NCBI GenBank assembly: GCA_022821905.1 | Contig: JAJECS010000013.1 | Span: 1 to 64,000 of the forward strand | Reading direction: 5' to 3' | Source of the DNA: Chloroflexota bacterium | GTDB taxonomy: Bacteria; Chloroflexota; UBA11872 | Length of the DNA: 64,000 nucleotides | Part shown: piece after piece, positions 9,940 to 18,559 of the stretch | How the letters are laid out: each line of letters begins with the position of its first letter | Position numbering within the stretch: position 1 is the first letter of the stretch | Translations under genes and position numbers: made by a program | Notes under the pieces: generated by a model | What the model was told of the DNA's origin: nothing | Database searches by the model: none | Seen by the model: only the letters and a program-made list of their open reading frames with translations

Positions 9940-11685
9940 CTATCCGAGCGGGGCATCTGGGCTAAGCGCGGCCAGCAGCGCGTCGTGCTCCGCCACGACC
10001 CTGGCGACCGACTCCGCGGAGGCTACTTGCTCTCGCTCATCCTGGTGGCGGAGCTTGATCTCGACGGCGTCGGCCCGCACCGTGCGCCGGCTGACCGTGC
10101 AGCGAATGGGTATTCCCAGGAGGTCGGCATCGTTGAACTTGACTCCCGCGCTCTCATCACGGTCGTCCACCAACACCGTGAGGCCGGCCGCCTCGAGGTC
10201 GTGGGCAAAGCGTTCCGCGGCCTCCCGCACCTCGTCGGCCTGCCCCAGCTGCACCAGGTGCACGTCGTAGGGCGCCACGCTGGCGGGCCAGATGATCCCG
10301 TGCTCGTCGTGATGCAGCTCCACGACGGCCGCGGCCAGTCGCGTGATCCCGATGCCGTACGAGCCCATCACGATGGGCTGCGGCGATCCGCCTTCGGAGA
10401 GGAAGTTGGCATCGAGCTTGTCGCTGTAGTAGGCGCCGAATTTGAATGTGTTCCCGATTTCGATACCGGTCCGCAACTCGAGCGCCGCACCACACTTCGG
10501 GCACGGATCTCCGGCCGCAACGGCGGCGATATCGGCAACGTGATCGGCGGCAAAGTCACGCGGATAGTTGACATTCAGCAGGTGAAAGCCAGGCATGTTG
10601 GCCCCGGCGACCAGATTGGACGTGCATTCCACAGAACGATCCACGACGACCATCACCTGGTTGAGCCCTACCGGCGAGGCGTAGCCCGGCACGAGACCGG
10701 CGGCGGTCAGTTCTTGATCGGCCGCGAGACGAAGGTCGGGGGCGCCCAGCGTCCCCCGCAGCTTGGCCTCATTCACCTCCAGATCGCCGCGAATGGCCAC
10801 GAACGCTATCTGGTCACCGGTCCAGTAAAAGACGGCCTTTAGCGTGCGGTGAGCCGGCAAACCGAGAAAGCCGGCCACGGCGGTGATGGTCTCCTGCCCA
10901 GGAGTTTCGACCTTTTCCATCGGGAGCGGCTCGGCGTCGTCGGGCTCGGGCGGCTGCGTGGTCGCCACTTCCTGGTTGGCCCCATAGTCGCAACTGGTGC
11001 ACACCACGATCGTGTCCTCGCCGGCGGACGTCATCGCGTGAAACTCGTCCGCGTCCGAGCCTCCCATCGCGCCGGCGTCCGACTCGACGACGAGGGGCTC
11101 GATCCCGCAGCGGCGGAACGCGCGCACGTACGCCGTGACGAACTGCCGATAGGTCGCGTCAAGACTCTCCGGCGACGGGTCGAAGGTGTAGGCGTCCTTC
11201 ATGGTGAACTCGCGGGTGCGCAGCAGCCCGCCGCGCGGGCGCGGCTCGTCGCGGAACTTGGTCTGAAAGTGGTAGACGCTGACGGGGAGCTGGCGGTAGG
11301 AGCCCACGAGTCGCGCGGCGAGATCGAGGGCGATCTCCTCATGGGTGAGGGCCAGCACCATGTTGCGTTCGGCGCGATCCTTGAAGCGCACAAGCTCGGG
11401 CCCGAGCGAGGCGAAGCGGCCAGTGCGTTCCCATAGCGTGGACGGATGCACCACGGGCATGAGGAGCTCTTGGCAGCCGACGGCGTCCATCTCTTCGCGA
11501 ACGACCTGCTCGATCCGCCGCAAGGTCCGCCAGCCCAACGGCAGGTAGCTGAAAATCCCAGCGCCAAGCGGACGAATGAACGCTCCGCGCACCATGAGCC
11601 GGTGGGACGCGATCGTGGCGTCGGCGGGGTCTTCACGCAGAGTGCGACCGAAGAGCGAAGACAAGCGTTGCACGGACAGCCTCAC
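9940..11685 (-). CDS. proS: Prolyl-tRNA synthetase, bacterial type with editing insertion
   Basis: This class II synthetase charges tRNA-Pro. Its 581 residues match the long bacterial ProS (about 570). Seen in order are the N-terminal catalytic half with PLGAGIFSYLPLGWR, motif 2 in TREFTMKDAYTFD, an inserted YbaK-like editing domain (about residues 230-400) and motif 3 in MGSYGIGITRL. The C-terminal anticodon-binding domain starts near APYDVHLVQLG. Translation starts at a GTG at 11685 with GAGG five bases upstream. Only 36 bases separate it from cysE, with no visible terminator, so it may be read through from the cysteine T-box leader. Confidence 0.97.
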   Translation of the reverse strand: MRLSVQRLSSLFGRTLREDPADATIASHRLMVRGAFIRPLGAGIFSYLPLGWRTLRRIEQVVREEMDAVGCQELLMPVVHPSTLWERTGRFASLGPELVRFKDRAERNMVLALTHEEIALDLAARLVGSYRQLPVSVYHFQTKFRDEPRPRGGLLRTREFTMKDAYTFDPSPESLDATYRQFVTAYVRAFRRCGIEPLVVESDAGAMGGSDADEFHAMTSAGEDTIVVCTSCDYGANQEVATTQPPEPDDAEPLPMEKVETPGQETITAVAGFLGLPAHRTLKAVFYWTGDQIAFVAIRGDLEVNEAKLRGTLGAPDLRLAADQELTAAGLVPGYASPVGLNQVMVVVDRSVECTSNLVAGANMPGFHLLNVNYPRDFAADHVADIAAVAAGDPCPKCGAALELRTGIEIGNTFKFGAYYSDKLDANFLSEGGSPQPIVMGSYGIGITRLAAAVVELHHDEHGIIWPASVAPYDVHLVQLGQADEVREAAERFAHDLEAAGLTVLVDDRDESAGVKFNDADLLGIPIRCTVSRRTVRADAVEIKLRHQDEREQVASAESVARVVAEHDALLAALSPDAPLG

Positions 11686-11721
11686 GGCGACCTCAAGCAG
11701 CCGCTCAGTGTATCGGCCAGC

Positions 11722-12387
11722 TCAGATCACGTAGTCGGGCGGATCGCGCCGCTCGCCAAGCTGACGGATCGGTTGCCGTCGAACCGGCTCGCCGCGACGC
11801 TCGACGTAGCTGGCGCGAGGCCCAACGACCGTCGAGCCGGGGGGGACGTCTTCGGTGACGATCGACAAGGCGCCAATGCGGCTGCCGGCGCCGACGGTGA
11901 CCGGGCCAAGGATGCTGGCCCCGACGCCGATGGTCACGCCGTTCTCCACGATCGGGTGCCGCCGCTTGCCGCCGATGCCGTCCTCACGCCACCACCCGGT
12001 GGCGCCCAGGGTCACCTGGTGGTACAGCATGACGTCGTCACCCACGCGTGCGGTCTCTCCGATCACCACGCCTGAGCCGTGGTCGATAAAAAAGCGACGT
12101 CCGATCAGGGCGCCCGGATGAATCTCGATGCCGCCGGTTGCCAGTCGCGCGAACTGACTGATGGCGCGGGGCAGCACGGGCACGCCCCGCACATAGAGCC
12201 AATGGGCAATCCGATGGAAGAAGAGCGCGTGCACGCTGGGATAGAGCAACACCTCCAGCACGTTCCTGGCGGCTGGATCCTTGTCGAGCACGACGCGCAT
12301 CCACTCCGGCCCGCGGCGTTTCCTGGCCGCGGAGTCCGGCGCCTGGTCCGCACCGCCGTTTCCCGGGTCGATCTTCCAATCCTCCAT
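11722..12387 (-). CDS. cysE: Serine O-acetyltransferase (CysE/EpsC type)
   Basis: The enzyme acetylates serine with acetyl-CoA, the first step to cysteine. [20 protein letters not shown] opens the short helical domain. The left-handed beta-helix follows with [39 protein letters not shown] and [19 protein letters not shown], which hold the catalytic aspartate and histidines. The short N-terminus is the EpsC form. The start is uncertain. ATG 12387 lies eight bases after the T-box hairpin, while ATG 12300 (MRVVLDKD) has a GGAG in front and would give a shorter protein. The gene is headed by a cysteine-specific T-box and followed closely by proS. Confidence 0.95.
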
Positions 12388-12395
12388 TACGCCAA

Positions 12396-12660
12396 GAGCG
12401 CCCATCCCGAAGGACGGGCGCTCCCGTGATTCCACCTTCCTGCGCTGCGGCCTCGCGGCACGCAACCTCAGCGGGTGCCAAGGCACCCAAGCCCGCTACC
12501 GGGGGCCAACCGGCTCGGCCTACCCACGCCATTGCTTCGGCCGAGCGGCTCACGAGGGCAATTCGCCGTCCGACGCGTACCGGCCTCGCACCGCCGCCGG
12601 CTCGCTGTCCGCGTGAAGGACGGCTACTGGTCTCGCTCAGCGCCGCACATTTGCTTGTTC
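12396..12660 (-). ncRNA. Cysteine T-box riboswitch leader of cysE
   Basis: Read on the minus strand, the leader has T-box landmarks in order. GACCAGTAG is the AGTA element. The distal stem I region is CAGCGAGCC (12596-12604) and GGTGCGAGGCCGG. The specifier loop GAATTGCCCTCGTGAG holds the codon TGC (12558-12560), which is cysteine. The antiterminator is GAAGG (12435-12439), a seven-base bulge TGGAATC (12428-12434), ACGGG, loop AGCG, CCCGT and CCTTC (12409-12413). The bulge begins TGGA, which pairs with the acceptor end of a tRNA with discriminator U, as in tRNA-Cys. A competing 12-bp hairpin with a TTCG loop (12396-12423) uses the same CCCGTCC strand. No U-tract follows it, so control could be at translation or at termination. 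Confidence 0.93.
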
Positions 12661-12664
12661 CCCG

Positions 12665-12693
12665 TACTTACGCCGCAAAGACGCGGATGTCAA
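12665..12693 (-). promoter_or_regulatory. Promoter of the T-box/cysE transcript
   Basis: On the minus strand a perfect -35 TTGACA lies at 12688-12693. It is followed after exactly 17 bases by TAAGTA (12665-12670), which can serve as a weak -10. Transcription would begin near 12658, just before the T-box stem I. The -10 is poor, so this is a prediction from spacing, the consensus -35 and position. Confidence 0.65.
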
Positions 12694-18022: not shown

Positions 18023-18559
18023 TCACCGGCGCCTGATGACGAGGAATGCGCCGAAAGCGATCAGGATCAGCGGCCACAGCCGCCACGCATCGAACTGCGC
18101 GAGGAGCCCGAGCGAATCCAGCAGCGCCAGCACGCCGATGACGACCAACGCGAGCCCGACGAATGCCGCACCGCCCACGCGGCGGCGGTCCGAGGGCTGT
18201 TCGGGCGCATGGGGCTGATACGTTTGCGCGGCGCCGGGAGCCGTCGGCTCGGATGCCGGCTGCGGCGCGGCTTCCCCACCCGCGGGCTCGTCGCCCGGCG
18301 CCGGCGCTTCGCCGGCGTCGGCGGGTTCGTGATCCGCTCCAACCGCGCCAGGTTCGATTCCCGGGGCGTGCGCGGCGCCCGCGGGCACAACGACCACCAT
18401 GACGAAATAGATGATGATGGCGACCCCGCCGGTGAAGATCGCCAACAGCACCCAGAGCAGGCGCATGAGCGTGGGATCAACGTCGAAGTAGTCCGCCATG
18501 CCGGCCGAGAGTCCCGTGAGCAGGCGATCGTCCTCGCTGCGATGCAAACGACGCTGCAT
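18023..18559 (-). CDS. PspC-domain membrane protein
   Basis: Residues 1-60 are a clear PspC domain: RLLTGLSAGMADYFDVDPTLMRLLWVLLAIFTGG followed by a membrane helix. A proline/alanine/glutamate-rich linker of about 65 residues then leads to two C-terminal helices with a short RRR end, as in LiaF/DUF5668-like proteins. PspC proteins sense or buffer inner-membrane stress. GGAGGA is seven bases before the ATG. It is divergent from the pseudouridine synthase gene, which starts 57 bases away. Confidence 0.88.
   Translation of the reverse strand: MQRRLHRSEDDRLLTGLSAGMADYFDVDPTLMRLLWVLLAIFTGGVAIIIYFVMVVVVPAGAAHAPGIEPGAVGADHEPADAGEAPAPGDEPAGGEAAPQPASEPTAPGAAQTYQPHAPEQPSDRRRVGGAAFVGLALVVIGVLALLDSLGLLAQFDAWRLWPLILIAFGAFLVIRRR

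Follow-up and report, generated by a model that had tools for sequence, protein, structure and literature searches.

The cysE–proS locus and its leader

The 64,000-nucleotide stretch of Chloroflexota DNA analysed here (the window) carries on its minus strand cysE, encoding serine O-acetyltransferase, followed by proS, encoding prolyl-tRNA synthetase, and upstream of both a structured leader with the features of a cysteine T-box (Table 1). The CysE product also matched TIGR01172, with 193.7 bits and thus under the cut-off of that model (210.65). A cysKM-family protein scoring above cut-off is encoded elsewhere in the source genome. In the following, G000 denotes the source genome and G000–G005 the six genomes of its genus; the class sample comprises 41 genomes. 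The G001 leader and its cysE are found in record JAPPNP010000063.1 (Chloroflexota bacterium RHO3_bin_74).

Among the 11 CysE-encoding genomes of families f1 and f2, the source genome included, 10 have cysE and proS side by side. The pair also occurs in G019 and G021, for which no T-box was found; for G022, the 1.5 kb examined beside cysE did not show proS. The T-box probably heads an operon-like pair that spans window positions 9940–12372. A possible promoter precedes the leader, its −10 element TAAGTA (12670–12665) being poor; since a promoter scan returned no site, the candidate is regarded as weak.

Table 1. Features of the cysE–proS locus (positions in the window).
Feature	Position	Strand	Basis
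Possible −35 element TTGACA, 17 nt before poor −10 TAAGTA	12688..12693	-	invariant in 6/6 genus genomes
T-box leader, Stem I to antiterminator	12407..12649	-	RF00230 covariance match
Stem I, long form with distal loops	12547..12644	-	cmscan alignment and RNAalifold consensus
AGUA, 5′ side of specifier loop	12625..12628	-	direct reading and covariance alignment
Specifier codon UGC (Cys), 3′ side of specifier loop	12558..12560	-	same place in 9/9 aligned leaders
Stem II	12513..12546	-	cmscan alignment and RNAalifold
Antiterminator/antisequestrator GAAGG-UGGAAUC-ACGGG / CCCGU-CCUUC	12409..12439	-	cmscan alignment, RNAalifold; −10.5 kcal/mol
T-box bulge UGGAAUC; UGGA complements UCCA-3′ of tRNA-Cys	12428..12434	-	tRNA-Cys(GCA) with U73, G000:C6:127169-127240
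Competing 12-bp UUCG hairpin, no U-tract	12396..12423	-	−25.1 kcal/mol, z −7.1, invariant in 6/6
AUG, start in the first-pass annotation	12385..12387	-	absent in 5/5 congeners
Shine-Dalgarno GGAGG	12381..12385	-	strong anti-SD pairing in 6/6
Likely CysE start AUC	12370..12372	-	invariant and in frame in 6/6
Alternative start AUG	12298..12300	-	invariant; SD weak in 5/6, lost in G005
cysE, serine O-acetyltransferase	11722..12372	-	NF041874, 195.4 bits (cut-off 150)
proS, prolyl-tRNA synthetase, next gene	9940..11685	-	NF006625, 690 bits

Covariance and conservation of the T-box

With cmscan, the T-box model RF00230 aligned end to end (model positions 1–219) with the minus strand from 12649 to 12407, at 60.3 bits and an E-value of 8.4e-13. 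This score, with a bias of 21.8 bits, is below the Rfam gathering score of 93, and a gathering-threshold Rfam scan of the window accordingly lists just a tRNA. For comparison, RF00230 matches occurred in 5 of 14 control genomes and were above the cut-off in 2 of the 14. A Twister-sister match (E 0.024, 21.9 bits, cut-off 34) was taken as chance.

The T-box parts named in the first-pass annotation were all confirmed by reading and covariance search, namely the AGUA element, the UGC codon, the bulge between the GAAGG/CCUUC and ACGGG/CCCGU helices and the 12-bp UUCG hairpin. Against 200 shuffled sequences the whole leader was only modestly more stable (z −1.94, 7 shuffles as stable), and for the antiterminator by itself z was −0.77, 46 shuffles being as stable. 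It is therefore the covariance model and conservation that carry the case for a T-box. By contrast, the UUCG hairpin stood up fully, no shuffle out of 200 being as stable. Its bases 12423–12409 are shared with the antiterminator, so that the two are predicted as alternative structures.

In an alignment of nine leaders, with Stem I of G020 and G023 imperfectly aligned, the RNAalifold consensus fold contained Stems I, II and III together with the antiterminator, and 16 of 66 pairs had both partners altered in one or more sequences. One antiterminator pair covaries, being A-U in seven leaders and G-C in two. Within the genus a run of 49 bases (12444–12396) is invariant in all six genomes and reaches exactly to the hairpin's last base, which argues that selection acts on the hairpin; the linker on its 3′ side is variable in length, and of the first 36 cysE codons 17 differ at the third position.

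Specificity for tRNA-Cys

The tRNA-Cys of the source genome has anticodon GCA and ends in UCCA, and hence has U73. Specifier UGC and bulge UGGA both fit this tRNA, in support of the earlier assignment to tRNA-Cys. Because U73 is also present on tRNA-Gly and tRNA-Thr among the listed tRNAs of the genome, UGGA fits all three alike and it is the codon that decides specificity. UGC and UGGA are found in all nine aligned leaders. The 3′ side of the specifier loop reads GAA-U-UGC-C in the genus and GAA-G-UGC-G in G016 and G020. The base after the specifier is thus C in all six genus genomes and G in G016, G020 and G023; a purine is usual at this position, according to the accessible part of a published account (PMC7583486). 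In the source genome the T-boxes of trpE and ileS, too, have a C at this position when read by eye.

Three other RF00230 matches are present in that genome (107.3, 77.2 and 36.8 bits). Their codons, read by eye as far from the lower helix as in the cysE leader, fit the genes that follow (GUC with ilvB-like, UGG with trpE, AUC with alaX-ileS), these genes being named from their translations. Specificity for proline, considered on account of proS and of a CCC readable in the loop, was rejected: UGC alone is shared by the genus with G016 and G020, and tRNA-Pro has ACC(A) at its end instead of UCCA. As a separate observation, ARAGORN called a tRNA-Thr (CGT) at window positions 18296–18373 on the plus strand, within an ORF region; it is absent from the Rfam scan and probably a false call.

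Translation start of cysE

In the first-pass annotation the hairpin was placed eight bases before a start codon. The AUG at 12387 does exist in the window, but it is missing from all five congeners (G005 has UUG at this position) and was rejected as the start. The 3′ arm of the hairpin contains an AUG, which shares the cysE frame in three of six genomes only, and a further in-frame AUG, 42 nt before AUG 12300, occurs only in G002 and G004; both were likewise discarded. In-frame start candidates common to all six genomes are AUC 12372 and AUG 12300, and the stretch between them (12372–12301) is 72 nt long in each. Shortly before the 12387 position, G001 and G003 carry a TGA in frame with cysE, after which no ATG, GTG or TTG occurs ahead of the AUG matching 12300.

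The 3′ end of the 16S rRNA, GGCTGGATCACCTCC, was found once. With the anti-Shine-Dalgarno (SD) letters the best 8-base SD window pairs at −9.3 to −10.7 kcal/mol in the six genus genomes. The SD core starts 9–11 nt past the hairpin in all six, and the SD window lies 6–8 nt ahead of AUC 12372, itself 23–27 nt downstream of the hairpin. Pairwise codon differences within 12372–12301 numbered 43 synonymous versus 104 non-synonymous in the cysE frame, as compared with 29/120 and 17/124 in the other frames, and thus lean towards coding. Judged from these sequence data, CysE of the genus is likely to start at AUC 12372; AUC is rarely used as a start codon, and the SD ahead of it is strong.

The competing hairpin

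The earlier remark that the hairpin lacks a U-tract was borne out: a T-run of at least four follows it in none of the six genus genomes, as opposed to a hairpin with such a run in all 18 other T-boxes of the genus. A laxer test for a hairpin plus U-rich stretch was passed by these 18 and failed by five of the six cysE T-boxes, the exception being G003, which has a broken stretch of 6 T in 8 bases (TTGTGTTT). A terminator scan of the window likewise found no intrinsic terminator with a U-tract. Across the class sample, 104 of 129 T-box matches have a T-run of at least four and 25 have none; the latter include partial and doubtful matches and the trpE T-box of G019, and the measure scores a UUUU within the 3′ arm of the G016 hairpin as a run. 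The match on G032:C40 gave no hairpin, as its contig ends there.

Genome-wide use of U-less terminators was looked for in 28 convergent gene gaps from about 464 kb of the source genome, and there was no sign of it. U-less hairpins of −20 or below occurred in 0 of the 28 gaps versus 3 of 28 in one mononucleotide shuffle set, and U-tract hairpins occurred in none (shuffled, 0). The test relied on crude gene calls and one shuffle for each gap; the 18 T-box terminators, all detected, served as positive control. Ordinary gene ends of G000 thus seem to be without intrinsic terminators, as seen in 20 stretches plus the window (28 gaps).

The SD lies beyond the hairpin in the genus, and Stem I in the cmscan alignment is long, as in transcriptional T-boxes. 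Opening of the SD was computed with RNAfold for the unconstrained fold, in which the hairpin forms, and for the fold with the antiterminator forced. The respective values were 0.29/0.02 (G000), 0.58/0.09 (G001), 0.25/0.24 (G002), 0.78/0.04 (G003), 0.40/0.56 (G004) and 0.33/0.60 (G005). There was thus no consistent switch between the two states, and the direction was wrong in three genomes. Neither textbook form of output fits the cysE T-box of the genus.

Orthologous cysE T-boxes in relatives

Of the 27 class genomes with CysE, nine have a T-box match directly before cysE, namely the six genus genomes plus G016, G020 and G022; of the other 18, with CysE and no adjacent match, 6 were rescanned with laxer filters. 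The match in G016 is full-length and, at 95.6 bits, above the gathering score. Its competing hairpin (L186:1368-1404) holds the SD AAGGAG (L186:1388) in the 3′ arm and the GUG start (1402–1404) at its end, and it has a stability of −11.1 kcal/mol (z −3.05), which 2 of 200 shuffles matched. SD opening there is 0.20/0.43 and thus in the expected direction. The cysE T-box of G016 is therefore likely to be translational, with a hairpin that sequesters SD and start, whereas the hairpin of the genus does not include the SD.

In G020 the leader has a GC-rich hairpin followed by UUUUGUUGAUUUU, and its output looks like termination. The G023 leader closely resembles that of G020, U-tract terminator included, and lies on a contig that ends before the gene. 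Both differ in this respect from the genus, whose hairpin is without a U-tract. Common to the genus and to G016, G020 and G023 are UGC and UGGA, and also the cysE-proS pair, which is not visible in G023. In G022 (L050) the Rfam match spans 160 nt only and the antiterminator looks degenerate by eye. Thus, the output half differs among orthologous cysE T-boxes while the sensor is kept.

Other T-boxes in the class also drew attention by eye. The trpE T-box of G019 (L051:709-1075) has no U-tract, and its leader GCCAUU can pair with an AAUGGC that contains the start codon. GAC-codon T-boxes before an Asp/Asn-tRNA synthetase-like gene on L275 (G038) and L267 (G040) have a strong hairpin and three or four U, with an SD immediately after.

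Discussion

We conclude that the cysE leader, which probably serves both cysE and proS, very probably contains a cysteine T-box riboswitch of the Chloroflexota that is on when cysteine is short. Its identity, specificity and target are, as judged from sequence, the most secure part of this model and almost certainly correct. By analogy with the known T-box mechanism, uncharged tRNA-Cys would pair through anticodon GCA with the specifier UGC and through its UCCA end with the UGGA of the bulge. Such pairing would favour the antiterminator and block the competing hairpin, so that cysE is on when cysteine is short. With charged tRNA the hairpin would win and cysE expression would fall.

A chance match of a GC-rich leader, in keeping with the score under the gathering score, the bias and the modest stability of the whole leader, is refuted for practical purposes by the end-to-end match with its E-value, by the nine T-boxes directly before cysE among 27 genomes and by the strong match in G016. 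The C after the specifier, where a purine is usual, also counts against a cysteine T-box, as does the score.

How the hairpin acts is a question on which we are more cautious. Our tentative first choice is that it stops transcription without a proper U-tract. The long Stem I, the hairpin plus T-run of all 18 other genus T-boxes, the terminators of G020 and G023 and the G003 sequence that passes the laxer test point in this direction; the missing T-run in all six genomes, the failure of five of them in the laxer test and the 28 convergent gaps without a U-less hairpin argue against it. A possible second choice is that the hairpin hinders translation initiation, impeding ribosome loading at the SD and at the start just after it. 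Such a role would agree with the missing T-run, with a strong SD starting so close to the hairpin in six of six genomes and with the G016 orthologue, where the hairpin includes the SD and ends with the start. However, in the genus the SD and both common starts lie outside the hairpin, with AUC 23–27 nt away, computed SD opening reveals no consistent switch, and Stem I is long, unlike in most translational T-boxes as described in the accessible text of PMC7583486. Control of translation, raised in the first-pass annotation, is thus retained as an option, minus the argument from the start codon at 12387. We consider it rather unlikely that the hairpin acts by another route or not at all, i.e. 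that the switch behind a preserved sensor is in decay or depends on a further factor, for instance Rho or RNA decay. The lack of a T-run, the SD outside the hairpin and the variable linker are compatible with this, as are the 28 convergent gaps devoid of U-tract hairpins; given that the same test detected all 18 T-box terminators, Rho may dominate in the source genome. The 49 bases that are invariant through the last base of the hairpin speak against such decay.

While the sensor is ordinary, the output is mildly interesting. It is conceivable, if still doubtful, that the output of one orthologous T-box has shifted between closely related genomes, with a terminator in G020 and G023, sequestration of SD and start in G016 and a third arrangement in the genus, that is, a strong U-less hairpin 23–27 nt before an AUC-started cysE. 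U-less terminators are a class of disputed existence, and if the U-less hairpin terminates it would provide a clean case for it. G020, G016 and the genus form a natural series in which the sensor is kept and the output half differs, and which makes shifts of T-boxes between control of transcription and of translation testable. If true, the third arrangement would be a T-box output type undescribed in the literature compared here, as far as its accessible text goes.

The first-pass annotation had considered a probable non-Firmicute host worth mentioning. The host is indeed one, but T-boxes are not unusual there: under Infernal's stricter filters, matches were found in 40 of 41 class genomes (E ≤ 0.001) and in 127 of 151 genomes sampled from the phylum (E ≤ 1e-12). 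Together with a 2008 survey, whose accessible text reports six T-boxes in two Chloroflexi genomes (PMC2494555), this makes a non-Firmicute T-box unsurprising. The Dehalococcoides ileS, trpE and trpB-like T-boxes of that survey share phylum and T-box with our case; in the part of the source at hand no cysteine case is named and cysE has no occurrence. The open-access literature, as far as its text was accessible, yielded no report of a cysE T-box for Chloroflexota, the entries of TBDB (PMC7778990) being outside this search. The present leader adds cysE of Chloroflexota to the known cysteine T-boxes.

Translational ileS T-boxes of Actinobacteria, as portrayed in the available portions of PMC1262725 and PMC7583486, resemble the genus leader in having no U-tract terminator; they differ in that their SD is in the hairpin and their Stem I mostly shortened, whereas the cysE leader of the genus has a long Stem I and an SD not enclosed by the hairpin. 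Cysteine T-boxes of Firmicutes precede, according to the accessible text of PMC2940859, cysK, cysP1 and cysP2 of Clostridium perfringens and cysS or cysES elsewhere. Those of C. perfringens end in a terminator, unlike the cysE leader with its U-less hairpin, and the gene pair cysE-proS and the phylum Chloroflexota set our case apart from the Firmicutes examples in the same text. Common to both are UGC, AGUA, the bulge UGGAA and the control of cysteine genes including cysE.
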